A DNA stretch of 55,815 nt from Acetobacteraceae bacterium (GTDB lineage Bacteria > Pseudomonadota > Alphaproteobacteria > Acetobacterales > Acetobacteraceae): positions 1 to 55,815 of the forward strand of contig JAIYDS010000037.1 of assembly GCA_027487385.1 (NCBI GenBank), in the 5' to 3' direction. The position numbers and the translations under genes were made by a program. The notes beneath the pieces are model-generated. The model worked only from the letters and a program-made list of their open reading frames with translations, was not told the DNA's origin and did not search any database. Positions 4,476 to 44,373 of this stretch are shown here, piece by piece (within the stretch, counting starts at the first letter, position 1; each line of letters opens with the position of its first letter).

Positions 4476-4510
4476 GTTTTCCGCGCCCTGCCTCGCTTGC
4501 CCCACCTCGC

Positions 4511-23752: not shown

Positions 23753-23756
23753 ACCC

Positions 23757-24608: not shown

Positions 24609-24674
24609 CAACATGCAAGACCAGGCTCAGCAGGTGCGGCGCGCGCACGGAGAATCCGCGCCGAACAGGCGCGG

Positions 24675-24694
24675 CGGAACGCTTCAGCGTTCCG
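24675..24694 (+). other. Hairpin in the cynB-cynD gap
   Basis: CGGAACGCT (24675-24683) pairs perfectly with AGCGTTCCG (24686-24694), a 9-bp stem with a 2-nt turn. It sits in the 135-bp gap between permease and ATPase genes, the rest of which shows no gene. It lacks a T-tract, so processing or mRNA stability is more likely than termination. Confidence 0.45.
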
Positions 24695-24743
24695 AAGGCA
24701 AGGGCGCGGGCGCGGCCGCCCGCCGTCTGAGGGGCGTCATGCC

Positions 24744-25577
24744 ATGACGCAGAGAATAGTTTCCGTCGAGGGAATCGCGCGCAAATTCCCAGGGCTGACG
24801 GTGTTCCAGAATGTCTGGTTCGGCATCGAGCGCGGGGAATTCGTCTGCCTCGTCGGGCATTCGGGCTGCGGCAAGACGACCATCCTGAACATCCTCGCGG
24901 GTCTTGATACGCCAAGCGACGGTGTGGTGCTGGTGGATGGCAAGGAGATCACGGGCCCCTCGCTCGACCGTGCCGTGATCTTCCAGGGCCATGCGCTGAT
25001 GCCCTGGCTGACGGCCGAGCAGAATGTCGCCTTCGCCGTCTCCTGCCGGAATCCCTCCTGGGACAAGGCGCGCGTGCGCGATGCGGCGCGCGAGGCGCTG
25101 GCGCGTGTCGGCCTGACGCAGGCGGCCGAGCGCAAGCCCTCGCAGCTTTCGGGCGGCATGAAGCAGCGCGTGGGCATCGCGCGCGCGCTCTCGGTCAATC
25201 CGAAGCTGCTTCTGATGGATGAGCCGTTTTCCGCGCTGGATGCGCTCACGCGCGGTTCGCTCCAGGAAGAGGTTTCGCGCCTGGTCACCGATGCGGGGCA
25301 GACCGCCTTCATGATCACGCATGACGTGGATGAGGCGATCCTGCTCGCCGACCGCATCCTGCTGATGACCAACGGCCCCGAGGCACGGGTGGCGGAGGTG
25401 GTGCATAACCGCCTGCCGCGGCCGCGCACCCGGGCCGATCTGCACCACATGCCGGGCTATCACCCGCTGCGCGATCACATCATGGACTTCTTGATCACGC
25501 GCAGCCGGACTTTGGCGGGCACGCCGCCCGCCGATTACGACGCCCGGAACCCGCCCGTTGTTGAACTCGGCGGCTGA
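24744..25577 (+). CDS. cynD: Cyanate-type ABC transporter ATPase
   Basis: This 277-residue ABC ATPase has Walker A GHSGCGKT (residues 38-45), a Q-loop in VIFQGHALMPWLT, the signature LSGGMKQR, Walker B LLLMDEPF, a D-loop ALD and the switch histidine in MITHDVDEA. It belongs to the NrtC/NrtD/SsuB group. It has no fused C-terminal binding domain, so it is the NrtD/CynD type. It energises uptake by CynA-CynB. Confidence 0.92.
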   Translation: MTQRIVSVEGIARKFPGLTVFQNVWFGIERGEFVCLVGHSGCGKTTILNILAGLDTPSDGVVLVDGKEITGPSLDRAVIFQGHALMPWLTAEQNVAFAVSCRNPSWDKARVRDAAREALARVGLTQAAERKPSQLSGGMKQRVGIARALSVNPKLLLMDEPFSALDALTRGSLQEEVSRLVTDAGQTAFMITHDVDEAILLADRILLMTNGPEARVAEVVHNRLPRPRTRADLHHMPGYHPLRDHIMDFLITRSRTLAGTPPADYDARNPPVVELGG

Positions 25578-25599
25578 TTTCAACTTCAACCCCCAGGGT

Positions 25600-25618
25600 C
25601 CGGCCGCAAGGCGGCCGG
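25600..25618 (+). other. Hairpin in the cynD-cynS gap
   Basis: CCGGCCGC (25600-25607) pairs with GCGGCCGG (25611-25618) across an AAG loop. A second small palindrome CACGCTG/CAGCGTG lies at 25686-25700. Both are inside the 153-bp leader of cynS. No gene is seen in this gap. The role may be mRNA processing. Confidence 0.45.
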
Positions 25619-25730
25619 CGGCGCCCCAGGGACCATGCCACCGGCGCGACCGCCGCGCGCCGAAGCCAAGCTGGTCGTCCGACTGCACGCTGTCAGCGTG
25701 ACGCCAGCGCCGGCGATTGAGGAAAGAAAA

Positions 25731-26213
25731 ATGACGCGCGCTCAACTCACGGAAAAGATTCTCGACATCAAGCGCGAGAAGGCCTGGACCTGGAAATACA
25801 TCTGCGAGGAGATCGGCGGCATGTCGCCCACGCTCATCGTCGGCGCCCTGATGGGCCAGATGAAGCTGGTGAAGCCGCTCGCCGCCAAGGCCGCCAAGCT
25901 CTTCGGCCTCTCCGAGGTCGAGGAGCGGATGCTGAACGAGGTGCCCTATCGCGGGACGCCCATGCCCCCGACCGACCCGCTGATCTATCGCTTCTACGAG
26001 ATGGTGATGGTGAACGGCCCGGCCTGGAAGGCGCTGATCGAGGAGGAATTCGGCGACGGCATCATGTCCGCCATCGATTTCGACTTCGATTTCGAGCGTG
26101 TCGCGAACCCCAAGGGCGACCGCGTGAAGATCACCATGTCCGGCAAGTTCCTGCCCTACAAGTATTACGGGAATGAGCAGGGCATCCCCGACTACGGCTT
26201 CAAGGAAGAGTAA
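25731..26213 (+). CDS. cynS: Cyanate hydratase (cyanase)
   Basis: This 160-residue protein has the full cyanase layout. An N-terminal helix-turn-helix-like bundle is followed by the open-fold catalytic C-terminus. The three active-site residues are present with exact family spacing: Arg87, Glu90 and Ser113 (in IYRFYEMV and GIMSAIDF), the equivalents of E. coli Arg96, Glu99 and Ser122. The enzyme converts cyanate and bicarbonate to ammonia and CO2, both as detoxification and as a nitrogen source. The start at 25731 follows GAGGAAAG. It completes the cynABDS operon, ended by the terminator at 26248. Confidence 0.97.
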   Translation: MTRAQLTEKILDIKREKAWTWKYICEEIGGMSPTLIVGALMGQMKLVKPLAAKAAKLFGLSEVEERMLNEVPYRGTPMPPTDPLIYRFYEMVMVNGPAWKALIEEEFGDGIMSAIDFDFDFERVANPKGDRVKITMSGKFLPYKYYGNEQGIPDYGFKEE

Positions 26214-29436: not shown

Positions 29437-30529
29437 CTATAGCCAGATCTGCGCCACGCCCAGCGCGGGCGCGCCGCTCAGGACCAGCTCGAAATCCGCG
29501 AGACCATCGCCGCTCACATCGCCGGCGAGCACGCCGCCGGCATAGCGCAGCTGCCCCGCCGTCGCCGTAAAGGCGCCGGCGCCGAGCCAGGTGAAGGCCT
29601 GGTCGCCCGCCAGCAGGCTGTTCGCATCCAGCGCGGTCAGATCCAGCGCATCGCCCGCGGCGGCCGAGAAATCCACGAGGATGTCGCGCGTGGCGCCCCC
29701 CGCGGCACTCTCCGCGATCGCCAGGAAGCGGAAGACATCCGCCCCTGCCTGGCCTTGCAGCCGGTCCTGGCCAAGGCCGCCGATCAGCGTATCCGCCCCC
29801 GCGCCGCCCAGCAGCGTGTCGTTCCCCGCATCGCCCAAGAGCAGGTTGTCGCCCGCATTGCCGGTGATGCGGTTGGCCAGCGCATTGCCGGTCCCGCTCA
29901 GATGCGCGGTGCCGGTCAGGGTGAGCTGCTCCAGCTCCGCCCCCAGGGTGAAGCTGACCGAGGCGAGGACGAGATCCAGCCCGCCGCCTGCCAGTTCCAG
30001 CGCCACATCGCCCAGATGGTCCACAATGTAGCGGTCATCCCCGGCGCCGCCCTGCATCTCGTCGGCCCCGCCACCGCCATCCAGGCTGTCCTGGCCATCG
30101 CCGCCGATCAGCCTGTCCTCGCCGAGCCCGCCATACAGGGAATCGGAGCCGCCTTCGCCGGCCAGGAGATTGCCGGCCGCATTGCCGGTGATGCGGTTGT
30201 CCAGCGCATTGCCGGTCCCGCTCAGCGGGGCCAGGCCGGAGAGGACCAACTGCTCCACCGCCTCGGGCAGGACATAGGTGATGCTGGCAGTGACAAGGTC
30301 GAGTCCCCCATCCGCCAGTTCCATCACCAGATCGCCGGCCTCATCCACGGTGTAGCGGTCATTCCCAGCCCCGCCTTCCATACGGTCGGCGCCCGCCCCG
30401 CCATCCAGCCGGTCATCGCCGGCGAGGCCGAGCAGCGTGTCGCTCCCGCCACGGCCGCGCAGCAGATCCCCGAGCGGGCCGCCGGTCAGGAGCTCATCGC
30501 CGGCCCCGCCCGTGGCATTCGTGACCTCG
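29437..30529 (-). repeat. RTX nonapeptide repeats and type I secretion C-terminus
   Basis: Glycine/aspartate nonapeptides (GGSDTLLGLAGDDRLDGG type) occur in three clusters separated by longer beta segments. A C-terminal stretch DILVDFSAAAGDALDLTALDAN and a hydrophobic end follow. This is the usual calcium-folded RTX tail with an uncleaved type I secretion signal. Confidence 0.88.
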
Positions 30530-33500
30530 GCCACATCCAGCACGGTGATGCTCACGGCCTGTTCGGTGACGCGGCTGCCATCGCTCACCCGCAGCAGCAG
30601 CTCATGGATATTGTCCGCCCCGGCATCGCGCGGCCTTTCGTGATCCGGCGCCGCGCGGAAGCGGATCGCGCCCGTCGCATCCACGGTGAAGAGCGCCGCA
30701 TCCGCGCCCGCGAGCGACCAGGTGAGCGTGGTGCCCGCATCCGGGTCTTCCGCGCCGGCCTGCAGGACGATGCCCGTGCCATTCTCGCTGAAGCTCGCCG
30801 TGCCATTGGTGGTGATGCGCGGTGCCTCATTCACATCGGTGACCGTGATGGTGAGGAAGCGCTGCGCCGTCAGGCCGCCATCCGAGGCGATGAGGGTGAC
30901 GTCATAGCCATTGTCGCCGCCCGCATCCTGCGGCGCCTCGAAATCGGGCGTTTCCCGGAAGCGCAGGGCCCCGGCCGCATCCAGGGTGAAGCGCGCGGCA
31001 TCGGCCCCGGCCAGGGACCAGATGAGGCGCGCCCCCGCATCCGGGTCGCTCGCCGTGGCCTGGTGGATGATGCCCGCCTCGTTCTCGCTGACGCTGGCCG
31101 TGGCGCCGGAGGTGATGAGCGGCGCCTCATTGGCGTCGGTCACCGTCAGGGTCAGTGCCTGCCGCACCGTCTGCGTGCCGTCCGAGACGACGAGGATCAG
31201 CGCATGGCCATTATCGGCCCCGGCATCGCCCGGCGCCTCGAAATCGGGCGCGGTGACGAAGCTGAGGGCGCCCGTGGCATCCAGGGTGAAGAGACCGGCA
31301 TCCTCCCCTTCCAGCGACCAGGTGAGGCGCGCCTCCGCATCCGGGTCGCGCGCCATGGCCTGATAGGCGATGCCGCTGCCATTCTCGGTGAAGCTGGCCG
31401 TCACGGGCGAGGTGATGGCCGGCGCCTCGGGCGCATCGGTGACGCGGATGGAAATTGCCTGCCGGTCCGCGAGCCCGCCATCCGAGGCGATGAGGGTGAC
31501 GGCATAGGCATTGTCGCCATCCGCATCCCGCGGCGCCTCGAAATCCGGGGCGTCGCGGAAGCGCAGGGCGCCTGTGGCATCCAGGGTGAAGAGCGCGGCA
31601 TCCGCCCCGGCCAGGGACCAGGTGAGGCTCGCCCCCGCATCCGGGTCCGTCGCCATGGCCTGATAGGCGATGCCGGTGCCGTTCTCGGCGAAGCTGCCCG
31701 CGGCGCCGGAGGTGATCCGCGGCGCCTCGTTCACATCGGTCACGGTGATGCGCAGCGCCTGGCTCGCGCTGATCGCGCCATCGGAGGCGATCAGGATCAC
31801 CTCATGCCCATTGTCGCCGCCGGCATCGCGCGGCGCCTCGAAATTCGGGGCGGCGGCGAAGCGCAGGGCGCCCGTGGCATCCACGGTGAAGAGCCCCGCA
31901 TCCTCTCCGGCCAGCGACCAGTTCAGGCTCGCCCCCGCATCCGCATCACGCGCCTCCGCCTGATGCACGATCCCGGTGCCGTTCTCGGCAAAGCGGGCCG
32001 TGGCGGCGGAGGTGATGACCGGCGCCTCATTCGCGTCGGTGACGGTGATGAGCAGCGCCTTCTCGCCGCGCAGCGCGCCATCCGAGGCGATGAGCGTGAC
32101 GGCGTGGCGCGCATCGCGCGGCGCCTCGAAATCGGGCGGGGCCAGGAAGCGGATCGCGCCCGTCGCATCCACGGTGAAGAGGGCGGCATCGGCGCCTTCC
32201 AGCGACCAGATGAGGGGGCTGCTGCCCTCGGGATCCGTCGCGCTGCCCTGGTAGGCGATGCCGCCGCCATTCTCGGCGAAGCTGGCCCCCGCTCCCGAGG
32301 TGATGATCGGCGCCTCATTCACCGGGGTCACGGTGATGGTGATGGCGAAGCCCACGCCGGAGAGGCCATCGGCGACGGTGACGACCAGGTCATGCACATT
32401 GTCGCCGCCGAGATCGCCCGGCGCCTCGAAATCCGGCGTGGCCTTGAAGCGGATCGCCCCCGCCGCATCCAGGGTGAAGAGCGCGGCATCGGCGCCACTG
32501 AGCAACCAGGTGAGGGTGCTGCCAGAATCCGGATCGGTCGCGCTGGCCTGATAGGCGATGCCGCTGCCATTCTCGGCGAAGGTGACGGCGCGGGCCGAGG
32601 TGACGACCGGCGGGCGGTTGGGCACCACCGCATTCTCGATCACCACGCCGGCGCTGGCGAGGCCGAGATGGGTGCCGATGGCATCCGAGAGCCGGAGGAC
32701 GAAGCCTTCCTCCAATTCGGAGAGCATGTCGCCCGCGATCTGCAGGGTGACGCTGCGGCTCGCCTCGCCGGCGGCGAAGCTGACCAGCCCGCCGGGCAGC
32801 GCGCCGCCCAGGAAATCGGCGCCGCTGGCCGGGTTGGCGCCCTGGCCGGCCACCGCCCAGCGGATCAGGGCCGAGCCGCCGACATCGCCGCTGCGGGTGA
32901 GGGTGAAGGTGACATCCGTGCTGCCCGAAAGCGCCTCGGCCACGCGGGCGGGCGCGGCGCTGATCGAGGTGGTGTTGAGCGGGGAAAAGCCGGCCGGATA
33001 GCTGGTGCCGAGGCCGGGCAGCACCTCGGCCAGGCGCACCGTGCCGCCTTCCGTGCCATCGGTGACCCAGATGCTCCCGCCCGCAGCGCCCGTGCCGTCA
33101 TTGGCGCCGAACAGCAGCCTGCCATCGGGCAGGGCGGTGAAGTCGCGCGGGTCGCTGCCATAGGCGACGCCGTTGGCGGTGGGCCGGATATCGGCCACGA
33201 GGCTGGTGCCGGCGGCGGTGCCATCGGTCACCCAGAGCTCGGTCCCGTGGGTGCCGTCATCGGCGCCGAACATCACCCGGCCATCGGCCAGCCGGCCGAA
33301 GCCGTTGGAATAGGTGGTGCCGAAGGCGCTGCCGCCCGGGTTGATGTCGGCCAGGCGCGAGGTGCCGGCCGCGCTGCCATCGGTCACCCAGAGCTCGATA
33401 TCGCCGGTGGAATCCTCGGCGCGGAAGAGCAGGCGCCCGCCCAGCGCGGCGAAGATGCCGCCCGCCTGGTAGTTGGAGCGCAGCACCGGCAGATCGGCCA

Positions 33501-36500
33501 GCATGGAGGTGCCGGCGGCGCTGCCATCGGTCACCCAGAGCTGCCGCAGCGCCTCCGCGCTGAAGACCAGCCGCCCATCCCCCAGCGCGGTGAAGCCCGT
33601 GGGCTCGCTGCCAAGGATGCCGGGGAGGATATCCTTCACCAGCGACGTGCCGGCGGTGGTGCCATCGGTGACCCAGAGCTCGCGGTCCTGGCGCGTGGAG
33701 GTGGCGCTGAACACCGCCCGCCCATCGGCCAGCAGCGTGAGTTCCAGCGGCTGGCTGCCGGCCGCGCCGGGGCGGAGATCCGCCACGCGCTGCGTGCCGG
33801 CGGCGGTGCCGTCGGTGCTCCAGAGCTCGGCCCCCGTGCTGCCATCCTGGGCCAGGAAAACCAGACGGCCATTGCCCAGCGCGGTGAAGCCCGCGGGCGA
33901 GGAGGCGCCCGCGCCCGGGTTGATATCGGCCAGCAGCGAGGTGCCGGCTTGCGTGCCATCCGTCACCCAAAGCTCGCCGCCGCGGGTGCCGTCATCCGCG
34001 GCGAAGGCGAGGCGCCCATCGGCCAGGCGGGTGAAGCCCGCCGGGTCGCTGCCCGCACCTGGATTGATCTCGACGAGGAGGGAGGTGCCGGCGGCGGTGC
34101 CGTCCGTCACCCAAAGCTCGCGATCCGTGCCATCGGTCAGGCCGCCGAACACAACGCGGCCATCCAGCAGCCCGGCGAGGTGCTGCGGCCCGAGGCCGTA
34201 GCCCGGCGTGGCGGCGCCCGTGTCCTGCACCAGGGAGGTGCCGGGGGCGGTGCCGTCCGTCACCCAAAGCTCGGCGCCCGTCCCAGGCTCGAAGCCCAGG
34301 AAGACGAAGCGCAGCGCCGTGTCGTCATTGCCGATCAGGCTGCTGGCGCTGGCCGTGATGAGCGAGGCGCCGCTCGGGTTGGAGAGGGTGACGGTGAAGC
34401 CCTCATCCGCCTCGGCCAGGGCATCGCCGGCGAGCTGGAGGGTGATGCTGCGGCTGGTCTCGCCCGGCGCGAAGAGCACCGTGCCGCTGGGCAGCACGCC
34501 GCCCGCGAAATCGCTGGCCTGGGCGGCGGCGGTGCCGCTGCCGGTGACGGCCCAATCCGCGCTGGCGCTGCCCGTGGCATCGCCCAGCCGCGTGACGGTG
34601 AAGGTCACGCTGGTGGCGCCGGACTGGCCCTCCACCACGCGCGCGGCGGGGGCGGCGATGGCCAGGCCCGCATCGTCATTCAGGATGCTGACGCTGACCG
34701 TGCTGCGCAGCAGCGAGGCCCTTACCGGATCCGCGAGGGTGAGGGTGAAGCCCTCATTCGCTTCATGCAGCGCATCGCCCGCCAGTTGCAGGGTGATGGT
34801 GCGGATGGTCTCGCCCGCCCTGAAGCTGACCAGGCCCGAGGGCAGCACGCCGCCCGCGAAATCCGCCGCATCGGCCGGGTTCGCCCCGCTGCCGGCGACC
34901 GACCAGGCGGCGCTCGCCACCTCTGCGGTCAGGCCCGTGCGGATCACGGTGAAGGTGACGGTTGTGCCGCCCGAATGCCCCTCGGTGACGCTGGCCGGCC
35001 CGCTGACCGAGATCGCCGTTCCGAGCGCGGTGAAGCCGCCAGGGTAGCTGTTCCCCGCGCCCGGATGGATGTCCCGCAGCAGGATCGTACCGGACGCGGT
35101 GCCGTCGGTGATCCAGAGTTCCTTGCCAGAGCCGGTCTGCGCGCTGAACAGGACACGGCCATCGGCCAGCGCCTTGAATCCCTCGGGATGGCCGCCGACC
35201 CCGCTGCCCGCGGGGTAGAGATCCGCCAGCAGCGAGGTGCCGGCGGCGGTGCCATCCGTCACCCAGAGTTCGCGGCCTGCCGAGGAATTCTCGGCGCTGA
35301 AGACCAGCCTTCCATCGCCCAGTGGCGTGAAGTCGCTTGGCCGGCCGCCATCCTCGCCCGGGGCGATGTCGGCCAGCAGGGAGGTGCCCGCGGCGGTGCC
35401 ATCGGTCACCCAGAGTTCATCGCCGTGCAAGCCGTCATCGGCGCTGAAGACCAGGGCGCCGTTGCGCGCCAGGGTGAAGCGCTCGGCATCGCTGCTGCGC
35501 GAACCCTGCCGGATGTCTGCGATCAGGCGGGTGCCCGCGGCGCTGCCGTCCGTGGTCCAGAGCTCGGCGCCCAGGCTCTCGCCGCGGGCGGAGAAGACCA
35601 CCTGCCCATTCGCCAGCGTGCCGATGCCGGAGACCCTGTCGAGGGCGATCTCTGCCCCGCTGGCGGGGTCTCGGGCGGTGAGGGGGCTGGTGCCGCCATA
35701 GGTGCCGTCGGTGACCCAGGGCGTGGTGTAGCTCCCGACGATGCTGCCGAAGAGCGACCGCCCGCCGGAGAGCTGGGCCGTCCCGACCCAGGGGTCGAGC
35801 CGCTCATTGTTCAGGACGGTGGTGCCGGCCTCCGTGCCATCCGTCACCCAGATGCCCAGGCCCTCGGTGTCGAAGATCAGCCGCCCATCGGGCAGCGCCG
35901 TGAAGCCGTAGGGATCGCTGGAGTCCGGCCCCGGATTCAGGTCCACCACGCGGGAGGTGCCGCCCGCCGTGCCATCCGTCACCCAGAGCTCCCGCCCGGT
36001 CAGCCCGTCATCGGCGGAGAAGACCGCGCGGCCATCGCCCAGCCGGGTGATGTAGCGCGGGTCGCTGCCATCATAGCTGGCATCGGGCCCCTGCCGCAGC
36101 ACCGCGACGCGCATCGTGCCGCCGAAGCTTCCGTCCGTGACCCAAAGCTCCCTGCCCTGGCTCGTCAGGCCGGCGCTGAAGACGACGCGGCCATCGCCCA
36201 GCCTGGCGAATTCATCGGGGAAGCTGCTGCCGAAGGGATCGGGATCGCGCAGCAGGGAGGTGCCGGCCTCGGTCCCATCGGTGATCCAAAGCTCCGTCGT
36301 GCCGATCGGCGCTTCGCTCGCGCGGAAGACGACGCGCGTGGCGGGGCCGTCATCCTCGCGGATGATGCCGCCCGCCACCTTCTGGCTGAAGCCCAGCTGG
36401 AAGGGGTGGCTGAGCGTGACCTGGAAGGCCTCGTCGCCCTCGACGAAGCGGTCCGCCGCCACCGCGATGGTGATGGTCTGCAGCGTCTCGCCCGGCTGGA

Positions 36501-39500
36501 AGACCACGGGCCCCTGCGGGAAGGCGCCGCCCAGGAAATCCTCGGCCTCGGCCGGGTTGTCGCCCATCCCCGTCACCGTCCAGGTGGCCAGGCCCAGGCG
36601 GGAGGCGTCGCCGATGCGGGTCACGGTGAAGGTGAAGAGGGTGGTCCCGGATTGCCCCTCCTGCTGCACCGAGACATCGCCCGCGATGGCGAGCCCGGCA
36701 TCGTCATTCACGATGGTGGTCACGACGCTGGGCTGGGCGAGGGAGGCGCCGAGCGGGTTGGAGAGGGTGACGGCGAGGGCCTCGTCGGCCTCGTAGGCAT
36801 CCTCGCCGCGCAGCTCCACGATGATGGTCTGCTGCGTCTCGCCGGGTGCGAAGGTGACGCGGCCCGCGAGGGGCGAGCCGGGGAGGAAATCCTCGGCATC
36901 CGTGGGTGCCGGGCCGAAGCCCGCCACCGACCAGTCGGCGCTGCTGGTCCCGGTCGTCGGGCCGGTGCGCGTGACGACATAGCTCAGGAAGGTCCAGCCC
37001 GAATGGCCCTCGATGACGCGCGAGACGGGCGCGCTGATGAAGAGCCCCGCATCGTCGTCGGTGATTTCGGCGCTGGCGGCGCCAGGCAGCAGCGAGGCGC
37101 CCTGCGGCTGCGAGAGGGTGAGGGTGAAGCCCTCGCCGGGCTCATGCCCGCTATCGGCGGCAAGCTCCAGGGTGATGCTCCGGCTGGCTTCGCCAGCGGC
37201 GAAGCTCACCACGCCCTCCGGCAGCACGCCGCCGGCGAAATCCGCCGCATCGGCGGGGCTGGCGCCGCTGCCGGTGACCGCCCAGCGGGCGCTGGCGCTG
37301 CCCGAGAGATCGCCACTGCGGGTCACGGTGAAGGTCACGGGGGTGGTGCCGCCGCTGCCCTCCAGGATGGGGGCGGCGGGGGCGCTCACGGCGAGTTGCG
37401 CGTCGTCATTGCGCAGCACCGCCTGCGCCGTCGCGGTGCCGAGGACGGCGCCCGACGGGCTGATCAAGGCCAGGGTGAAGCCCTCATCCGCCTCCAGCGC
37501 CGTATCCCCGGCGGCCAGGATGGTGATGGTCCGGCTCGCCTCGCCCGGCGCGAAGCTGATCAGGCCCTCCGGCAGCACGCCGCCCGCGAAATCCGAGGAA
37601 TCAGCCGGGTTGGCGCCGCTGCCCGCAACCGCCCAGCGGGCGCTGGCGCTGCCTGAGAGATCGCCGAAGCGGGTCACGGTGAAGGTCACGGGCGTGCTGC
37701 CGCCCTGGCCCTCGGTCACGGCCATGGCGGGGCCGGTGACGGAGAGCGCCGCATCGTCATTGCGCAGCACCGCCGTGGCCGAGGCCTGGCCCAGCCGGGC
37801 CCCCGTCGGGTTGGCGAGGGTGAGGAGGAGAACCTCATTCGCCTCCACCGCATCATCCCCCTGGATGGAGAGGGTGATGGTCCCGACCGCTTCCCCGGGC
37901 GCGAAGGCGAGGGTGCCCGAGGGCAGCCTGCCGCCCAGCAGATCCTGGCCATTGATCGGATTTCCGCTGGTGCCGGTGACGCTCCAGTCGACACTGGAGC
38001 TGCCCGTGAGATCGCCCCTGCGGGTCACGGTGAAGGTCACGGGGGTGCCGCCGACATTCCCCTCGGCCACCGGCCCGCCGGGCCCGGCGAGGGTGAGTTC
38101 CGTGTCATCGGCGCGGATCACGGCGCCGGCGGAAAGGTTCGTCGCCACCCCGCCGGCGACGTAGCTCAGGCCCAGCGCGAAACCTTCATCCGGCTCGGCC
38201 AGCAGGTCCCCCGCGACGTCGAGGGTGATGGTCTTCGACGTCTCGCCCGCCGCGAAGGTGACGCTGCCCGAGGGCAGGGCGCCGCCCAGGAAATCCGCGC
38301 CATTGGCGCCGCCTCCAGTGACCTGCCATTGGGCGGTGGCGACGCCGCTCAGATCCCCGCTGCGGGTCACGGTGAAGGTGAAGGGCGTGCGGCCCGCATC
38401 GCCCTCGGCGATGGGCGCGGCCGGGCCGGCCAGGGCCAGCGCCCATTCATCGTTGCGGATGGTGGCCGCCGCGCTGGCGGTGCCGAGCTTCGCCTGGACC
38501 GGGTTGAAGAGGGTGAGGGTGAAGCCCTCATCCGCCTCCATCACGCGGTCCCCCGCGAGCAGCACGGTGATGGTGCGGCTGGTCTCCGTCCCGAATTCGA
38601 TGACGCCGGAGGGCAGCACCCCCGCCGCGAAATCCTGGGCACTCGCCGGGTTGGCGCCGCTGCCCGTGATCGCCCAGGAGACCGCCTCGCTGGTGCCAAG
38701 CCCGGTGCGGGTCACCACGAAGCGGACCGGGGTGGTGCCGGAATCCCCCTCGGTGACGGGCAGGCTGGCGTCGCTGACGGAGATCACGCCGTCATCATCC
38801 AGCACCACGCCCAGGCGCCCGGCCAGCGGCGCCGAAGGATCGACCACCGCGCCGACGAGGTTCGAGAGGCGGAAGGTGAAGGTCTCGCCGGGCTCGATGA
38901 TGGCGTCAGGGGCCAGGGCGAGGGTCACGCTCTTGCGCGTCTCGCCCGGGGCGAAGGTGACGGTCCCGGTCGGCAGCGCGCCGCCCGCGAAATCCGCCGC
39001 CGAAACCGGGCTCGCGCCCTCCGGCACCAGGCTCCAGGTCGCGCTGCTGGTGCCGGTGGTGACGCCGGCGCGCAGGATCGTCACCTCCGCCATGCGCAGG
39101 CCCGCATCCCGCTCCAGCAGCGTGATCAGGCCCGGCTGGCCGACCTCATTGGGCAGCACGCTCAGCGTCGTGTCATCGGAGGCGATGACGGCGCTGGCGG
39201 TGGCGAGCACGCTCCCCGCCGGATTGGTCAGGGTGAGCGTGAAGCCCTCATCCGCCTCGGGCAGCTGGTCGCCACGGACCTGGATGGCGACGACGCGGCT
39301 CGTCTCGCCCGGGGCGAGGGTGATGGTGGTGGCGGGCAGACGGTCCCGCGCGCCCTCCACGAAATCCAGCCCATCGGCGGGGTTGGGGCCGCTGCCGGCG
39401 ACCGAGAGGATACCGGTGAAGGCCTCGGAGAGATCCCCCACGCGCGCCACGGTGAAGTTGAAGACGCTGAAGCCGGCATCGCCCTCGCGGATCGGCGCGG

Positions 39501-42500
39501 CCGGCCCGGTGAGGGTGAAGGCGGTCTCATCGGGCAGGATCGTGGTTTCCACGCGCCCGTTGCCCACCGGCCCATGGGCGCTGGGGAAGAGCACGAGCGC
39601 GAAGCGCTCGGCCATCTCCGCGACGCTGTCGCCCGCCACTTGGATGGTGATGCTCCGCAGGCTCTCGCCCGGGGCGAAGGTCACTTCGCCATAGGGCAGG
39701 CTGCCGCCCACGAAATCCCGGCCATTGACCGTAGTCGCCCCGGTGCCGACCACCTGCCAGGAATTGGTGACGCTGCGGCTCAGATCACCCGTGCGGGTCA
39801 CGGTGAAGACGAAGTCGGTGGCGCCCGAATTCCCCTCGGGCAGGCCCGCCGTCGGGCCGCTGAGATCGATCTGCGTGTCATCGGTGCGAATGGTGAGGCT
39901 GGCGCCGCCCTGGCCGATCTGCGTGTTGACCGGGGCGCTGAGCTGGATGGAGAATTCCTCATCCGGCTCCACCACGCGATCCGCCAGCACGCGGATGGTG
40001 ATGCTCTGGCTGGTCTCGCCCGGCGCGAAGCTGACCCGGCCCGAGGGCAGCACGCCATCCGCGAAATCGGCGGCATTGGCGCCGCTGCCGACCACCGCCC
40101 AGGCGACGCTGGCCGGGGCGTCCAGATTGCCGCTTCGGGTCACGGTGAAGGTGACGAGGGTGGGGCTGCCGCTGCCCTCCACCACGAACCCCGCCGCCGG
40201 GCCGCTGATCGAGACACCCGTGTCATCCGTCACGATCGTCGTGGCGAACTCGTTGTTCAGGAGAATGACGTCGCCCTCGGCGCGCAGCCGGAGGACGAAA
40301 TTCTCGTTCGGTTCGGGGAGGGTATCCGCGACGATGTTCACGCCGAAGAACCGGCTGGCGTCGCTGCCGAAGGTGATGGTGCCGGAGGGCAGCAGGTTCC
40401 CGACAAAGTCCGAGGCCGTGCCCGGGTTCTCGCCGATGCCCACCACCTCCCAGGTGAGGGTGATGTCGCCCCGCATGTCGCCGCTGCGCACCACCTCATA
40501 GGGGAGGAGGGTGCTGCCCGCATTGCCCTCGATGACCGCAGCGTGGCCCACCAGCGTCACGCCCTTGTCATCGGCGCCGATGGTGGCGACGGCGATCGGC
40601 TGGGCGAGCGCGGCATGGAAGCTGTTGGACAGGGTGACGCTGAAACTCTCGTCCGGCTCCACCAGCCGGTCGGCCGCCACCAGCACGGTGATGGTGGCCG
40701 TGCGCTGGCCGGGCGCGAAGGTGACGATGCCGCTGGGCAGGACGCCGCCCACGAAATCGGCCGCATCGGCGGAGCGGCCGCCATTGCGGGCGACCGTCCA
40801 CATGGCCTGGTCCGCCTGGCTGAGATCGCCGCTGCGCGTGACCACGAAGTTGAAGGGCGTGCTGCCGATCTGCCCCTCGGCCGTGGAGGTCGGGGGCGCG
40901 ATCCGCAGCGCGGAATCATCCGTGACGATGGTGATGGTCTGCGGCGCGCCCTGGATGGTCGCGTTCACCGTATTGCCGAGGCTGAGGGTGAATTCCTCAT
41001 CCTCCTCGGCCAGCGCATCGCCCGCGACGCGGATGACGAAGCTCTTCTGCGTCTCGCCGGCGGCGAAGGTGAGGGTGCCGCCAGGCAGGGTGCCGCCCGA
41101 GAAATCCGAAGCCTGGGCCGGGTTGGCGCCGCTGCCCGCGACCGACCAGCTGGCCTCGGCCCGGCTCGTCAGATCGCCCGTGCGGGTCGCGGTGAAGGTG
41201 AGGACCCGAGCGCCGGAGAGCCCCTCGGTCACGCTCGTGCCGGGGCCGGTGAGGGTGATGACTGAATCATCATCGAGGATGGTGGCGCCGAGGATCCCCG
41301 TGCCCGGCGTGCCGCCGCTGGCCGTGGTCAGCTGGACGCCGAACGTCTCGCTGCCCTCCAGGATCTGGTCGCCGGCGACCTGGATGTTGATGGTGCGGCT
41401 GGTCTGGTAGGGGGCGAAGACCACCGTGCCGCGGGGCAGCATCCCGGCGAGGAAATCCTCCCCGGAGGCGGTGTAGCCGCGATCGGGGAAGCTCGAAGCG
41501 CCCAGCACCGTCCACTCGACGCTCGCCTCATGCGCGAGGTCGCCGCTGCGGGTCACGGTGAAGGCGAAGCTGGCGCCGCTGTTGCCGCCCTCCTTCAGCG
41601 TCGGGCCTGACCCGGTGAGGGTGAAGCTGGCGGCCGGCTCGCCGCTGCGGAGGGTGAAATAGGCGGGCAGGCCGCTGCCGGCCCCAGGGTCGATGTCCCG
41701 GAGCAGGCTGGTGCCGGCGACCGTCCCATCCGTCACCCAGAGCTCGACGCCGGTGCCGACGGTGCTGTTGCGGAAGACGGCGCGGCCATCGAGCAGCGAG
41801 GTCAGCTCGATCGTCCCGCCATAGGCGCTGGTGGTGGGAATGGAGGCGATGCGCTGGGTGCCGCCGGCCGTGCCGTCGCTCGACCAGAGCTCCAGGCCGG
41901 CAGCGGAAGCATTGGCGGTGAAGACCATGCGGTTGCCGGCCACCGGCGTGAAATGGGCCGGAAAGGCGAGGCCCGCGGGGAAGGAAGCCGCGTTGAGGAG
42001 GGGGCCGGTGCCGCTCGGGGTGAAATCGGTTGTCCAGAGCAGGGTGGAGCTGCCGTCATCCACGCGCAGCAACGCGTTGCCGCTGGCCAGCAAGGTCAGC
42101 CCGGCCCCGCCGCCCAAGGGCGGAAGGCTCACCAGCATGACGGTGCCATCGGCGCTGCCATCCGTCACCCAAAGGCCGGGGAAGGCGCGGCCGCCGGAGG
42201 GCTGGTTGGAGGCGGCGAAGAAGGCGACCCGCCCATCGGGCAGGCCGGTGAAGCCATAGGGCGCGCCGCTATCCGCGAGGAAGCCCAGATCCTTCACCAT
42301 CGAGGTGCCGGCCGCGCTGCCATCGGTCACCCAGAGCTCGGTCCCCCGGTCGGCCGTGCGGGCGGCGAAGACCAGGCGGCCATCGGAGAGGGCGGTGAAG
42401 CCGGTCGGATCGCTGCTGGCGCCGCCGGGGTTGATGTCGCGCAGCAGGCGCGTGTTGACGGTGGTGCCGTCGGTCACCCAGAGCTCGCGCCCCTGGCTGC

Positions 42501-42981
42501 CATTGTCGGCGTCGAAGACCAGGCGGCCATCGGGCAACACGGCGAATTGGGTGGTGCGGCTGCTGCCGGTGCCGGGATTGATGTCCAGCAGGAGGCGGGT
42601 GTTCGCGGCGGAGATCCCGTCCGTCAGCCAGAGCTCCTGGCCGCCCAAAGGGGTATCGGCCAGGAACACCATGTTGCCGTAGAGTTTGTGGAACAGCGAG
42701 GGTGAGCTGCCGCCGGGGCCGGGGACGATGTCCAGGACGAGGATCGGCTGGTCGGAACCGGAGAGGCTGGTCGCCCAGAGCTCCCGCCCATGGCCTTCGA
42801 GATCGGCGCCGAAGAGGACGAAGCGGCCGAGATGGGTCTGCGCCTCGCTGAAGCCCAGGAAGGTGCCGTCCACCGTATTGGCGAAGCTGGTCATGGCCCG
42901 GGTGCCGGCGGCGGTCCCGTCGGTGGTCCAGATCTGCCAGCCGGCACCGGCCTGTCGGGCCGTGAAGAGCAGGTTGGCCAT
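29437..42981 (-). CDS. Giant RTX-type secreted repeat protein (ELWxxDGT / Calx-beta / cadherin)
   Basis: This single uninterrupted frame encodes 4,514 residues. Domain order by eye: ELWxxDGT block 1 (1-447, nine units); 15 Calx-beta domains (about 448-2209, roughly 117 residues each, motif FTVTRSGDL); ELW block 2 (2210-2654, nine units); two Calx-beta; ELW block 3 (2888-3337, nine units); one Calx-beta; seven cadherin-like repeats of about 100 residues (3452-4150, motif FAENGTGIAYQA); RTX calcium-binding nonapeptides (GGAGADRMEGGAGNDRY style); and a C-terminal type I secretion target region. There is no N-terminal signal peptide, as expected for type I secretion. Such proteins are surface adhesins or biofilm matrix components. 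No ABC exporter, HlyD or TolC gene is adjacent. The start at 42981 has a GGAGA site at modest distance. Confidence 0.93.
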   Translation of the reverse strand: MANLLFTARQAGAGWQIWTTDGTAAGTRAMTSFANTVDGTFLGFSEAQTHLGRFVLFGADLEGHGRELWATSLSGSDQPILVLDIVPGPGGSSPSLFHKLYGNMVFLADTPLGGQELWLTDGISAANTRLLLDINPGTGSSRTTQFAVLPDGRLVFDADNGSQGRELWVTDGTTVNTRLLRDINPGGASSDPTGFTALSDGRLVFAARTADRGTELWVTDGSAAGTSMVKDLGFLADSGAPYGFTGLPDGRVAFFAASNQPSGGRAFPGLWVTDGSADGTVMLVSLPPLGGGAGLTLLASGNALLRVDDGSSTLLWTTDFTPSGTGPLLNAASFPAGLAFPAHFTPVAGNRMVFTANASAAGLELWSSDGTAGGTQRIASIPTTSAYGGTIELTSLLDGRAVFRNSTVGTGVELWVTDGTVAGTSLLRDIDPGAGSGLPAYFTLRSGEPAASFTLTGSGPTLKEGGNSGASFAFTVTRSGDLAHEASVEWTVLGASSFPDRGYTASGEDFLAGMLPRGTVVFAPYQTSRTINIQVAGDQILEGSETFGVQLTTASGGTPGTGILGATILDDDSVITLTGPGTSVTEGLSGARVLTFTATRTGDLTSRAEASWSVAGSGANPAQASDFSGGTLPGGTLTFAAGETQKSFVIRVAGDALAEEDEEFTLSLGNTVNATIQGAPQTITIVTDDSALRIAPPTSTAEGQIGSTPFNFVVTRSGDLSQADQAMWTVARNGGRSADAADFVGGVLPSGIVTFAPGQRTATITVLVAADRLVEPDESFSVTLSNSFHAALAQPIAVATIGADDKGVTLVGHAAVIEGNAGSTLLPYEVVRSGDMRGDITLTWEVVGIGENPGTASDFVGNLLPSGTITFGSDASRFFGVNIVADTLPEPNENFVLRLRAEGDVILLNNEFATTIVTDDTGVSISGPAAGFVVEGSGSPTLVTFTVTRSGNLDAPASVAWAVVGSGANAADFADGVLPSGRVSFAPGETSQSITIRVLADRVVEPDEEFSIQLSAPVNTQIGQGGASLTIRTDDTQIDLSGPTAGLPEGNSGATDFVFTVTRTGDLSRSVTNSWQVVGTGATTVNGRDFVGGSLPYGEVTFAPGESLRSITIQVAGDSVAEMAERFALVLFPSAHGPVGNGRVETTILPDETAFTLTGPAAPIREGDAGFSVFNFTVARVGDLSEAFTGILSVAGSGPNPADGLDFVEGARDRLPATTITLAPGETSRVVAIQVRGDQLPEADEGFTLTLTNPAGSVLATASAVIASDDTTLSVLPNEVGQPGLITLLERDAGLRMAEVTILRAGVTTGTSSATWSLVPEGASPVSAADFAGGALPTGTVTFAPGETRKSVTLALAPDAIIEPGETFTFRLSNLVGAVVDPSAPLAGRLGVVLDDDGVISVSDASLPVTEGDSGTTPVRFVVTRTGLGTSEAVSWAITGSGANPASAQDFAAGVLPSGVIEFGTETSRTITVLLAGDRVMEADEGFTLTLFNPVQAKLGTASAAATIRNDEWALALAGPAAPIAEGDAGRTPFTFTVTRSGDLSGVATAQWQVTGGGANGADFLGGALPSGSVTFAAGETSKTITLDVAGDLLAEPDEGFALGLSYVAGGVATNLSAGAVIRADDTELTLAGPGGPVAEGNVGGTPVTFTVTRRGDLTGSSSVDWSVTGTSGNPINGQDLLGGRLPSGTLAFAPGEAVGTITLSIQGDDAVEANEVLLLTLANPTGARLGQASATAVLRNDDAALSVTGPAMAVTEGQGGSTPVTFTVTRFGDLSGSASARWAVAGSGANPADSSDFAGGVLPEGLISFAPGEASRTITILAAGDTALEADEGFTLALISPSGAVLGTATAQAVLRNDDAQLAVSAPAAPILEGSGGTTPVTFTVTRSGDLSGSASARWAVTGSGASPADAADFAGGVLPEGVVSFAAGEASRSITLELAADSGHEPGEGFTLTLSQPQGASLLPGAASAEITDDDAGLFISAPVSRVIEGHSGWTFLSYVVTRTGPTTGTSSADWSVAGFGPAPTDAEDFLPGSPLAGRVTFAPGETQQTIIVELRGEDAYEADEALAVTLSNPLGASLAQPSVVTTIVNDDAGLAIAGDVSVQQEGQSGTTLFTFTVTRIGDASRLGLATWTVTGMGDNPAEAEDFLGGAFPQGPVVFQPGETLQTITIAVAADRFVEGDEAFQVTLSHPFQLGFSQKVAGGIIREDDGPATRVVFRASEAPIGTTELWITDGTEAGTSLLRDPDPFGSSFPDEFARLGDGRVVFSAGLTSQGRELWVTDGSFGGTMRVAVLRQGPDASYDGSDPRYITRLGDGRAVFSADDGLTGRELWVTDGTAGGTSRVVDLNPGPDSSDPYGFTALPDGRLIFDTEGLGIWVTDGTEAGTTVLNNERLDPWVGTAQLSGGRSLFGSIVGSYTTPWVTDGTYGGTSPLTARDPASGAEIALDRVSGIGTLANGQVVFSARGESLGAELWTTDGSAAGTRLIADIRQGSRSSDAERFTLARNGALVFSADDGLHGDELWVTDGTAAGTSLLADIAPGEDGGRPSDFTPLGDGRLVFSAENSSAGRELWVTDGTAAGTSLLADLYPAGSGVGGHPEGFKALADGRVLFSAQTGSGKELWITDGTASGTILLRDIHPGAGNSYPGGFTALGTAISVSGPASVTEGHSGGTTVTFTVIRTGLTAEVASAAWSVAGSGANPADAADFAGGVLPSGLVSFRAGETIRTITLQLAGDALHEANEGFTLTLADPVRASLLRSTVSVSILNDDAGLAIAAPAARVVEGQSGATSVTFTVTRLGDATGSASADWAVTGSGTAAAQASDFAGGVLPSGTVLFAPGETSRSITLQLAGDALAEADEGFTVTLSNPSGASLITASASSLIGNDDTALRFVFLGFEPGTGAELWVTDGTAPGTSLVQDTGAATPGYGLGPQHLAGLLDGRVVFGGLTDGTDRELWVTDGTAAGTSLLVEINPGAGSDPAGFTRLADGRLAFAADDGTRGGELWVTDGTQAGTSLLADINPGAGASSPAGFTALGNGRLVFLAQDGSTGAELWSTDGTAAGTQRVADLRPGAAGSQPLELTLLADGRAVFSATSTRQDRELWVTDGTTAGTSLVKDILPGILGSEPTGFTALGDGRLVFSAEALRQLWVTDGSAAGTSMLADLPVLRSNYQAGGIFAALGGRLLFRAEDSTGDIELWVTDGSAAGTSRLADINPGGSAFGTTYSNGFGRLADGRVMFGADDGTHGTELWVTDGTAAGTSLVADIRPTANGVAYGSDPRDFTALPDGRLLFGANDGTGAAGGSIWVTDGTEGGTVRLAEVLPGLGTSYPAGFSPLNTTSISAAPARVAEALSGSTDVTFTLTRSGDVGGSALIRWAVAGQGANPASGADFLGGALPGGLVSFAAGEASRSVTLQIAGDMLSELEEGFVLRLSDAIGTHLGLASAGVVIENAVVPNRPPVVTSARAVTFAENGSGIAYQASATDPDSGSTLTWLLSGADAALFTLDAAGAIRFKATPDFEAPGDLGGDNVHDLVVTVADGLSGVGFAITITVTPVNEAPIITSGAGASFAENGGGIAYQGSATDPEGSSPLIWSLEGADAALFTVDATGAIRFLAPPDFEAPRDARHAVTLIASDGALRGEKALLITVTDANEAPVITSAATARFAENGTGIVHQAEARDADAGASLNWSLAGEDAGLFTVDATGALRFAAAPNFEAPRDAGGDNGHEVILIASDGAISASQALRITVTDVNEAPRITSGAAGSFAENGTGIAYQAMATDPDAGASLTWSLAGADAALFTLDATGALRFRDAPDFEAPRDADGDNAYAVTLIASDGGLADRQAISIRVTDAPEAPAITSPVTASFTENGSGIAYQAMARDPDAEARLTWSLEGEDAGLFTLDATGALSFVTAPDFEAPGDAGADNGHALILVVSDGTQTVRQALTLTVTDANEAPLITSGATASVSENEAGIIHQATASDPDAGARLIWSLAGADAARFTLDAAGALRFRETPDFEAPQDAGGDNGYDVTLIASDGGLTAQRFLTITVTDVNEAPRITTNGTASFSENGTGIVLQAGAEDPDAGTTLTWSLAGADAALFTVDATGAIRFRAAPDHERPRDAGADNIHELLLRVSDGSRVTEQAVSITVLDVAEVTNATGGAGDELLTGGPLGDLLRGRGGSDTLLGLAGDDRLDGGAGADRMEGGAGNDRYTVDEAGDLVMELADGGLDLVTASITYVLPEAVEQLVLSGLAPLSGTGNALDNRITGNAAGNLLAGEGGSDSLYGGLGEDRLIGGDGQDSLDGGGGADEMQGGAGDDRYIVDHLGDVALELAGGGLDLVLASVSFTLGAELEQLTLTGTAHLSGTGNALANRITGNAGDNLLLGDAGNDTLLGGAGADTLIGGLGQDRLQGQAGADVFRFLAIAESAAGGATRDILVDFSAAAGDALDLTALDANSLLAGDQAFTWLGAGAFTATAGQLRYAGGVLAGDVSGDGLADFELVLSGAPALGVAQIWL
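30530..32625 (-). repeat. Seven cadherin-like repeats
   Basis: Seven units of about 100 residues are each built as ITSGATASFAENGTGI, a DPDAGASLTWSLAG segment, ALFTLDATGALRF, and APDFEAPRDAGGDN, ending in VTLIASDG. The Asp-rich inter-domain linkers are those that bind calcium in cadherins. Confidence 0.85.
32970..34317 (-). repeat. ELWxxDGT block 3 (nine units)
   Basis: Nine units are marked ELWVTDGT (three times), ELWSTDGT, ELWVTDGT, LWVTDGS, ELWVTDGS, ELWVTDGT and IWVTDGT, about 449 residues in total. This is the most regular of the three blocks. One Calx-beta domain follows at about 32626-32969. Confidence 0.85.
35020..36355 (-). repeat. ELWxxDGT block 2 (nine units)
   Basis: Nine units are marked ELWITDGT, ELWVTDGS, ELWVTDGT, IWVTDGT, PWVTDGT, ELWTTDGS, ELWVTDGT, ELWVTDGT and ELWITDGT. 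The block is about 445 residues. It is followed by two Calx-beta domains at about 34318-35019. Confidence 0.85.
36356..41639 (-). repeat. Array of 15 Calx-beta domains
   Basis: Fifteen units each have a core FTVTRSGDLSGSASARW, a segment like DFAGGVLPSGTVTFAPGETSRSITI, and an EADEGFTLTL acidic segment that in this family binds calcium. Units at the C-terminal end of the array are most alike, pointing to recent duplication. Confidence 0.85.
41640..42981 (-). repeat. ELWxxDGT block 1 of the giant protein (nine units)
   Basis: Nine units of about 50 residues start at the first residue. The unit motifs read IWTTDGT, ELWATS, ELWLTDG, ELWVTDGT, ELWVTDGS, LWVTDGS, LWTTDFT, ELWSSDGT and ELWVTDGT. Between motifs lies a conserved strand pattern GFTALPDGRLVFAA. 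Some units are degenerate, especially 2 and 7. Confidence 0.85.
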
Positions 42982-43269: not shown

Positions 43270-44373
43270 ATGTCCGCATCCTCGCCCGCGATCCGCACGG
43301 AAGGCGATAGCGCGCCACCCTATTCCGTCCAGGCCTCGCCCGGCTTCGCCGCCTGGCTGAACGAGGCGAAGGTCAGCCTCGCGCTCACCACCTACCAGAT
43401 CGGCAAGCTCTTCCTGATCGGCGCGGAGAGCGAGGCCGCGCTCTCCGTCTCCGAACGCACCTTCGAGCGCTGCCTCGGCGTCGCCGGCACGGGCGGGGAT
43501 GGCTTCCTGCTGGCCGGGCTGAACGCCATCTGGCGCTTCGGCAATGTCGTGCCCCCGGGGCGCGAGCTGGAGGGGCATGACGCGGTCTATGTGCCACAGG
43601 TGGCCTGGTTCACCGGCGATGTCTTCGCCCATGATGTGGGCGTCTCGGCCTCGGGCCTGCCGGTCTTCGTGAACACGCTCTTCTCCTGCCTGGCCGCGGC
43701 CGATACGGGGAGCAGCTTCCGCCCGGTCTGGAGGCCACCCTTCGTCACCCAGCTGGCGCCGCAGGATCGCTGCCACCTCAATGGCCTGGCGATGGATGCG
43801 GCCGGGCGGCCGCGCTACGTCACGGCGGCGGCCGAGACCGACACCGCTGCCGGCTGGCGGCAGGACCGGGTGGGGAAGGGCGTGGTGATCGACGTCACCA
43901 GCGATGCCGTGGTCTGCCGGGGCCTGACCATGCCGCATTCGCCCCGCCTGCATGAGGGGCGGCTTTATCTGCTCGATGCCGGGACCGGCCAGCTGGGCCT
44001 GGTGGACCCGCTGGCGGGGCGCTTCGAGCCGCTGGCCTTCCTGCCGGGCTTCACCCGCGGCCTCGCGCTGATCGGCGGCCATGCGCTGGTGGGGCTTTCC
44101 CTGCCGCGGCAGAACGCCGTCTTCAGCGGGCTCCCGCTGGATGACCGGCTGAAGGCCGAGGGCTGGCAGCCGCAATGCGCCCTGGTGGTGGTGGAACTCG
44201 CCACCGGCCGCGCGCTGCATTGGCTGCGCCTGGGCGGCGTGGTGCGCGAACTTTATGACGTGGCGCTGCTGCCCATGGCGCGCCGGCCCATGCTGGTCGG
44301 CTTGCAGCAGACCGGGCCGATCAACCGCCTGATCTCCCGCGGGCCGGACCTTCCCCTGGCCGCGCTGGACTGA
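43270..44373 (+). CDS. TIGR03032-family protein (DUF4915)
   Basis: This 367-residue protein matches the TIGR03032 family. Its family blocks include VSLALTTYQIGKLFLIG near residue 35, YVPQVAWFTGDVFAHDVG, RPVWRPPFVTQLAPQDRCHLNGLAM, ETDTAAGWR, and GLTMPHSPRLHEGRLYLLDAGTGQLGLVDP, followed by FLPGFTRGLAL. The repeated strand-turn pattern suggests a beta-propeller. There is no signal peptide, so it is probably cytoplasmic. No biochemical function is known for the family. It is divergent from the giant repeat gene and followed 4 bp later by a TPR/glycosyltransferase-like gene. Confidence 0.85.
   Translation: MSASSPAIRTEGDSAPPYSVQASPGFAAWLNEAKVSLALTTYQIGKLFLIGAESEAALSVSERTFERCLGVAGTGGDGFLLAGLNAIWRFGNVVPPGRELEGHDAVYVPQVAWFTGDVFAHDVGVSASGLPVFVNTLFSCLAAADTGSSFRPVWRPPFVTQLAPQDRCHLNGLAMDAAGRPRYVTAAAETDTAAGWRQDRVGKGVVIDVTSDAVVCRGLTMPHSPRLHEGRLYLLDAGTGQLGLVDPLAGRFEPLAFLPGFTRGLALIGGHALVGLSLPRQNAVFSGLPLDDRLKAEGWQPQCALVVVELATGRALHWLRLGGVVRELYDVALLPMARRPMLVGLQQTGPINRLISRGPDLPLAALD

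Follow-up and report, generated by a model that had tools for sequence, protein, structure and literature searches.

Does an array of exactly nine ELWxxDGT units, occurring three times within one bacterial protein, denote a closed ring of nine blades? The question is raised by a giant open reading frame in a 55,815-nucleotide stretch of DNA from an Acetobacteraceae bacterium, referred to here as the window, in which a first-pass annotation noted three separate blocks of nine units and proposed that each is a candidate nine-bladed β-propeller. The interval described there corresponds to the first 3337 residues of a 4514-residue frame (Table 1). The analysis favors, with a probability of ~0.84, the reading that each block forms a closed nine-bladed β-propeller, the three serving as heads on a surface protein with RTX, Calx-beta and cadherin-like regions; both the fold and its closure are predictions.

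Table 1. Features of the giant-protein locus and its surroundings (positions are those of the window).
Feature	Residues	Position	Strand	Description
Giant-protein ORF (P0001)	1-4514	29437..42981	minus	4514 aa, ring 1 right at start
Block 1	1-451	41629..42981	minus	nine units, whole-unit phase (b c d a)x9
Stalk 1	452-2210	36352..41628	minus	tandem Calx-beta domains (Pfam)
Block 2	2211-2660	35002..36351	minus	nine units
Stalk 2	2661-2885	34327..35001	minus	about two Calx-beta domains (number by eye)
Block 3	2886-3340	32962..34326	minus	nine units; predicted nine four-strand blades, last strand 3330-3335
Cadherin-like region	3341 to ~4157	30511..32961 (end approximate)	minus	one Calx-beta (by eye), then cadherin-like domains
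RTX region	~4158-4514	29437..30510	minus	RTX nonapeptide repeats (HemolysinCabind) and C-terminus
Antisense frame		29755..37656	plus	2633 aa
DUF4915 gene		43270..44373	plus	divergent neighbor of giant gene
Transport and cyanate gene row		22397..26213	plus	NMT1-like binding protein, permease, ABC ATPase, cyanate lyase genes

The giant gene has a stop codon one codon ahead of its ATG and the sequence acggaga ~9 bases upstream. Pfam models matched the 4514-residue protein in 15 stretches for Calx-beta, six for Cadherin_4 and five for HemolysinCabind, the RTX calcium-binding nonapeptide (E = 1.7e-22), and the cadherin-like region also was matched by the Big_9 and VCBS models. Tryptophans in the first stalk recur ~117 residues apart by eye. 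The NCBIfam RTX_toxin model reached 52 bits in its best stretch (residues 4356-4421) against a cut-off of 1000, and with so low a score the match is taken to reflect shared RTX repeats and gives no sign of a toxin. No Pfam family matched on the ELWxxDGT blocks of the giant protein, and in its comparison with PDB sequences all 45 matches at E ≤ 0.001 had their best stretch outside the blocks. The long frame antisense to the giant gene very probably reflects composition and repeats and does not represent a gene. The divergent neighbor of the giant gene encodes a DUF4915 protein (Pfam, E = 8.7e-117).

The units themselves belong to a named repeat. The NCBIfam model TIGR04534 (ELWxxDGT_rpt) matched the giant protein in 25 stretches with an E value of 3.4e-301 and 971.4 bits, which excludes chance and places the protein in the family, the curated cut-off being 65 bits; the family was detected in 0 of 14 control genomes. 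A relaxed motif located 27 units distributed as 9 + 9 + 9, bearing out the earlier count by eye of exactly nine in each of three blocks, with strict ELWxxDGT in 14 of the 27 (3, 5, and 6 in blocks 1, 2, and 3, respectively). The other 13 units are variants, for example IWTTDGT, LWATSLS, LLWTTDFT, and TPWVTDGT. The motif tryptophans are residues 18, 69, 118, 168, 217, 271, 316, 366, and 415 in block 1, residues 2232, 2280, 2333, 2378, 2422, 2475, 2524, 2573, and 2623 in block 2, and residues 2906, 2957, 3005, 3054, 3103, 3149, 3198, 3250, and 3305 in block 3. Their spacing from unit to unit is 44-55 residues, which agrees with the original figure of ~50 residues per unit. A hidden Markov model (HMM) of the unit, with the consensus GKLLFSADDGTNGRELWVTDGTAAGTSLVKDINPGSASSSPSGFTA, detected all 27 units, having been built partly from them; the lowest scores in the window were those of block 1 unit 7 (8.7 bits) and block 2 unit 5 (10.8 bits). 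The spans defined by this model are 440, 437, and 442 residues for the three blocks, to which the first estimates of 447, 445, and 449 residues are fair approximations. Block 1 is the most diverged of the three.

The fold of block 3 was predicted with AlphaFold2 (AF2) from an alignment, A2, of the three window blocks and 20 homologous blocks. The model had a mean pLDDT of 84.2 and a pTM of 0.85, and contained 35 strands of at least three residues arranged in groups of four. Strand a of unit 2 appeared as a two-residue bridge only, and the nine four-strand groups are complete if this bridge is counted. Strands b, c, d, and a of the unit correspond approximately to LLFSA, RELWVT, SLVKDI, and GFTAL, respectively. 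The last strand (positions 445-450 of the model) follows the ninth d strand and is predicted to be placed as the strand a that is missing from the N-terminal side of blade 1. Values of pLDDT below 50 were confined to positions 41-45, 285-289, and 333-340 and to the tail, and every unit carries strands. A Foldseek search of the PDB with the model yielded 527 matches at E ≤ 0.001. The 50 matches listed, which comprise Photorhabdus lectins, LRP2, LRP6 and megalin, sortilin, virginiamycin or streptogramin B lyases, and puromycin hydrolase, are presumed to be propellers or propeller-containing proteins, and the highest query TM score among these 50 was that for sortilin (0.55). The structure prediction of block 3 alone thus produced a confident propeller fold with four strands per unit which, as a prediction, supports the proposal of nine-bladed propellers together with the PDB matches. 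Closure of the ring is suggested by the strand order in the model and by the unit counts of homologues, and blocks 1 and 2 would be propellers by homology to block 3.

Pfam searches with the 23 blocks of A2 produced scattered matches that were given no weight. Some were to propeller families, namely Lactonase (1.9e-8), PQQ_2 (1e-5), and NHL (5.8e-5) in two members each, and PD40 (0.0022) in three members, and block 3 itself matched ChW only (0.037). The commonest Pfam match on these blocks, POT1PC (12 of 23), was taken to be a repeat artefact. An AF2 model of the relative L038, which has 18 units, had a pLDDT of 73.4 and a pTM of 0.50 and did not show two rings. Its Foldseek matches were mostly multi-propeller proteins with low TM scores and high rmsd values (query TM of 0.30 for sortilin), a result that is compatible with the matching of one ring and no more.

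The number of units was assessed in a wider set of homologues. A scan of genome contigs that used the alignment of the three blocks as query produced 446 candidate stretches, of which 364 were confirmed; the best 80 of the 364, which represent 75 loci, were used. Because the ranking of these 80 was by resemblance to a query of nine units, the set was extended with samples identified by the family model of the single unit. Matches occurred in 5 of 289 genomes of the window's class, its own included, with longer stretches from all four others; in 17 of 247 genomes of Bacteroidota (the phylum of G324), with stretches from all 17; in 22 of 149 genomes of Planctomycetota (the phylum of G325), with stretches from 20 of the 22 (G682 and G683 excepted); and in 14 of 398 genomes of the window's phylum, its own included, with stretches from 12 of the 13 others (G1019 excepted). 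Genomes rich in matches had part of their proteins sampled. The phyla are named according to the titles of the matched records and to the kinship among the genomes. Removal of copies at 80% identity left 209 blocks, 48 of which were set aside as cut by the sequence end or with spacing outside 38-66. The tally omits L001-L008, L010, L012, and L013, which are copies of other loci, L242-L244, and the short loci L145-L201, many of which are cut by their ends.

The 161 clean blocks comprised 67 with nine units, 38 with 18, and one with 27, so that 106 of 161 (106 of the 146 with at least eight units) had 9, 18, or 27. The remainder had 3 (two blocks), 4 (four), 5 (one), 6 (four), 7 (four), 8 (12), 10 (two), 12 (one), 14 (one), 16 (10), 17 (seven), or 19 units (seven). 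Counts of 10-15 form a valley with only four of the 146 blocks with at least eight units. When the ranked scan, the window's own genome and genus, viral contigs, and G325 were excluded, 9 or 18 units were present in 29 of 51 clean blocks (29 of the 40 with at least eight units), 30 further blocks of this subset, including 13 of the 28 from Bacteroidota, having been set aside. The planctomycete G325, Planctomycetales bacterium 10988 (L097-L116), has 150 or more matches to the ELWxxDGT unit, 150 of its 761 candidates having been scored, and its 32 clean blocks had 8 (three), 9 (13), 14 (one), 16 (seven), 17 (three), or 18 units (five).

At least some of the counts of 3-7 (15 of 161 clean blocks) are due to diverged units missed by the HMM; these counts are not read as small rings, and L094 has six units by HMM and nine by eye. 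Of the 12 blocks with eight units, three (two in L222 and one in L231) appear by eye to have nine, and two (L023 and L055) end at or near the frame end. Corrections by eye (L094, L222, and L231) were not entered in the tally. Eight-unit rings with matching half-units at both ends were found in L097 (831 aa), L106 (804 aa), and L112 (920 aa), and these rings, with the 16-unit arrays that make up seven of the 32 blocks of G325, rule out nine as a fixed number. Nine is the preferred unit number and eight a real alternative that is clearest in one planctomycete. Therefore, where the first-pass annotation reasoned from a fixed number to a closed fold, the closed ring survives and the fixity does not: conservation of nine holds as a preference, and the variable numbers in homologues that were to count against the proposal do occur, but are still quantized.

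This quantization bears on whether the blocks are instead open β-solenoids or strings of small independent domains, for which the number of units would be free. Such arrays could have units as regular as the 44-55 residues observed, and the homologues that depart from nine accord with them. However, the scarcity of counts between 10 and 15, the propeller character of the block 3 model and of its listed Foldseek matches, and the hidden joint at unit 9 of 18-unit arrays described below make an open arrangement highly improbable.

Several of the sampled loci are noteworthy individually. The window's own genome encodes a second ELWxxDGT protein, L009 (C198:33458-36082), a frame of 1627 aa with 18 units. 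L222 (G796, 5176-aa frame) is likewise a giant protein, and the stretch covered includes four ELWxxDGT blocks. The HMM counts nine units in one of them (ten with an 83-residue spacing filled) and eight in each of the other three, two of which show nine by eye. In L094:1681-3978 and L096 (G199 and G297), the HMM counts six units in a ring that lies between ends of helical and flagellin-like appearance by eye, and the ends of L094 had no Pfam match at E ≤ 1. Diverged ELWxxDGT units are present also in L091 and L092, which are contigs of the IMG/VR viral collection.

Should an array of 18 units represent a pair of nine-unit rings, an anomalous unit is expected where they join. The permutation p values of the joint tests are uncorrected for kinship among the proteins. 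In 18-unit arrays (n = 38), the weakest interior unit by HMM was unit 9 (mean z of -0.89, family-wise permutation p of 5e-5), and the most variable spacing was that from unit 9 to unit 10 (63%, p = 0.011). The weakest unit in 16-unit arrays (n = 10) was unit 8 (z of -1.29, p = 7.5e-4), with the most variable spacing from unit 5 to unit 6 (p = 0.057), which is a misfit to a joint between units 8 and 9. Arrays of 17 units (n = 7) leaned to unit 9 (p = 0.066), and no joint was found in 19-unit arrays (n = 7, p = 0.86). The weak unit 9 in arrays of 18 and unit 8 in arrays of 16 are as expected if these sequences specify tandem rings.

The nine-unit blocks might not form one nine-bladed ring, but eight blades with a loose unit, or a 4 + 5 split. 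A designed protein with nine repeats, Tako9, formed eight blades according to the available part of its description (PMC6805158), relatives with eight units exist, and AF2 may misjudge the blade number of repeat propellers, as the accessible text of PMC9218822 indicates. These precedents are offset by the behavior of the nine-unit blocks (n = 67), in which no interior joint was evident at units 4 and 5 (mean z of 0.05 and 0.06), contrary to a 4 + 5 split. The only weak unit was unit 8, next to the end (z of -0.51, p = 2e-4), a weakness that a loose last blade could also explain, and the strands carried by every unit of the block 3 model speak against a loose unit. For these blocks, an arrangement other than one nine-bladed ring is improbable.

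The phase of the arrays is a further consideration for the single nine-bladed ring. The window blocks consist of whole units that begin with strand b and end with strand a. The same phase was seen in 22 of 55 nine-unit blocks, namely the window's three, one of G325, and 18 from Pseudomonadota, whereas the other 33 begin with d-a or end with b-c; L071, L075, and L097, which were read individually, do both. The occurrence of the same count in two circular phases supports ring closure at the sequence level, although an open array could also have either phase.

Nine might alternatively be a historical accident that was maintained by whole-block copying without structural selection, an explanation which overlaps the preferred one in that a propeller would still be possible. 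Blocks align end to end with 41-49% identity, L009 and its near relatives L011 and L038 share an 18-unit layout, and the nearest-unit test found only one of 119 blocks in which ≥70% of the units had their nearest neighbor within the same block. Given this last result, no claim is made that single blades were amplified independently. Yet the positional register from unit to unit between the window blocks, tested with 100,000 permutations, gave p values of 0.58 (blocks 1-2), 0.06 (blocks 1-3), and 0.28 (blocks 2-3), and without such register the shared nine shows no visible echo of a recent block copy. A whole-block duplication inside the window is unsupported by this test, with blocks 1 and 3 the nearest to one, and old copying among the blocks may have taken place. 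Similarity at a lag of nine units in 18-unit arrays (z of 0.12) was no higher than at a lag of one (0.13), nine is common to two array phases and to several phyla, and the 25 most repetitive blocks (mean unit identity of 0.57-0.68) all have 8, 9, 16, 17, or 18 units, 13 of them 9 or 18. Copying without selection for structure is judged unlikely.

In the favored arrangement of closed nine-bladed propellers, the ~49-residue unit would supply strands b, c, and d, followed by a. In blade 1, strands b, c, and d would come from the start of the block, whereas strand a would be supplied by its C-terminal end, giving a 3 + 1 velcro closure. Each blade would be made by the conserved c-d turn (DGTxxGT) and a Trp/Phe core, leaving the variable b-c and d-a loops as the likely ligand surface. 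Among 1203 units, the share with insertions rounds to 0% for the c-d turn and is 6% for the b-c loop, and the d-a loop has gaps of up to ~20% and insertions of 5%; these figures cover the b-c, c-d, and d-a loops, the a-b loop being outside the unit HMM. In the nine-bladed propeller of eIF2A, the AB and CD loops are on the bottom face and variable BC loops are on the top in the part of PMC4125824 available, and by analogy a ligand of the ELWxxDGT rings may be bound on the top face. The three heads would be mounted on a stalk of Calx-beta and cadherin-like domains, stiffened by calcium and ending in RTX repeats. With such an end to the stalk, type I export and display as a large surface adhesin are most likely. 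Calcium stiffening, export route, binding face, and adhesion are each proposals of this model.

The position of ring 1 is relevant to export. With a stop one codon before the ATG and the first unit match at residue 4, ring 1 leaves no space for a preceding signal peptide. An RTX C-terminus of this kind would act as a type I secretion signal. RTX repeats near the C-terminus, the lack of space for a signal peptide, and stalks of Calx-beta and cadherin-like domains point to type I export and surface display, as far as sequence can indicate. A scan of 20 ORFs of the window revealed no type I exporter, and the only ABC ATPase among them is next to genes for an NMT1-like protein and a permease that belong to an uptake system. 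Elsewhere in the genome, two HlyD-family (TIGR01843) genes, on contigs C134 and C3, scored over the cut-off. The gene row that contains this ATPase looks like an ordinary transport and cyanate cluster. Ten relatives were scanned with NCBIfam for carrier domains. T9SS sorting tails were present in all four Bacteroidota proteins scanned (L053, L064, L075, and L090), L039 has a Ca2+-stabilized adhesin repeat over the cut-off, and L009 and L019 produced RTX-type matches below the cut-offs of those models, that of L009 near the C-terminus. L036 gave weak matches only, and L043 and L097 nothing beyond the ELWxxDGT repeat. With carrier tails that differ among relatives, the ring looks like an exported module that changes carriers.

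These carriers also inform on whether the rings are an outer-membrane anchor or plug rather than binding heads. An anchoring role would suit the position of ring 1 at the very N-terminus, the presumed site of anchoring in RTX adhesins, and the authors of the BapP study speculate along these lines for its N-terminal propeller in the part of PMC12153261 available. By contrast, rings 2 and 3 are far inside the giant protein, and the four Bacteroidota proteins consist of one or two rings with a T9SS tail, their other NCBIfam matches being T9SS-related only. An anchoring role is judged unlikely, and binding heads are preferred.

No paper on the ELWxxDGT repeat family by name was found in the open-licence literature, nor was the ELW motif found in the accessible parts of PMC9218822, PMC8023676, PMC2716378, and PMC12153261. 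Predicted-structure databases may well already show ELWxxDGT domains as propellers. Neither the fold nor the name of the repeat is new, whereas the preference for nine units and the joints between rings appear to be. More generally, the ELWxxDGT blade may have an intrinsic ring size, such that arrays are trimmed to complete rings, mostly of nine and less often of eight units, including spacerless tandems of 18 or 27 units, across at least Pseudomonadota, Bacteroidota, and Planctomycetota and whatever the export route; the odds for this generalization appear evenly balanced. If true, nine-bladed propellers built from this repeat would form a large, possibly the largest, natural family of their kind, with a blade number readable from sequence. 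What makes a repeat array stop growing once it has a certain number of blades is of current interest in the study of propeller evolution. According to PMC9218822, amplification lacks a counting system, and new propellers are expected to converge on a preferred number. Units that settle mostly at nine, with an eight-unit variant and joints in arrays of 18 and 16, make the question testable by sequence and simple constructs. For a widespread repeat whose motif is the sole source of its name, the analysis further provides a likely fold and domain boundaries, and for giant bacterial adhesins it offers a candidate head domain.

Among known systems, the TIGR04534 family comprises the same repeat, with the giant protein as a member; the model describes one 47-residue repeat, and its name and description give neither fold nor number of units. 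IPR030916 is presumably the corresponding entry for the ELWxxDGT repeat. The eIF2A, eIF3b, and SGS1 proteins were not among the PDB sequence matches of the 23-block profile, and no sequence kinship with them was found. This profile gave 22 matches with E values of 0.047-1, to LRRK2 or an unnamed kinase and to one PDZ protein; the LRRK2 stretch matched, not significantly, is presumed to be its WD40 propeller. Nine blades were called rare in the first-pass annotation, and the number is indeed uncommon but already known from eIF2A, eIF3b, and propeller 2 of SGS1, as reported in the available sections of PMC4125824 and PMC9935623. In the same sections, eIF2A resembles the proposed structure of the blocks in having nine four-stranded blades, with strand A of blade 1 contributed by the C-terminal end. 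These proteins differ in being eukaryotic, whereas ELWxxDGT blades are near-repeats of one motif and have relatives with tandem rings. The Vps10p propeller of sortilin is described as having ten blades of the Asp-box family, and has 12% identity to block 3 in the structural alignment.

The giant protein, whose first unit match starts at residue 4, lacks space for an N-terminal retention module of the LapA type ahead of ring 1. LapA-like RTX adhesins have an RTX C-terminus. Like the giant protein, they are giant and repetitive with a Calx-beta-like stalk, as outlined in the available part of PMC12153261. That source also describes BapP of Pseudoalteromonas tunicata, a Ca2+-dependent adhesin shown to act in biofilm formation, in which an N-terminal predicted propeller is followed by Calx-beta and Big_9 domains with possible type I export. 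BapP has one five-bladed propeller and a signal peptide, whereas the giant protein has three nine-unit rings and RTX repeats in 4514 aa. Of the known systems, BapP is the closest functional parallel to the giant protein.
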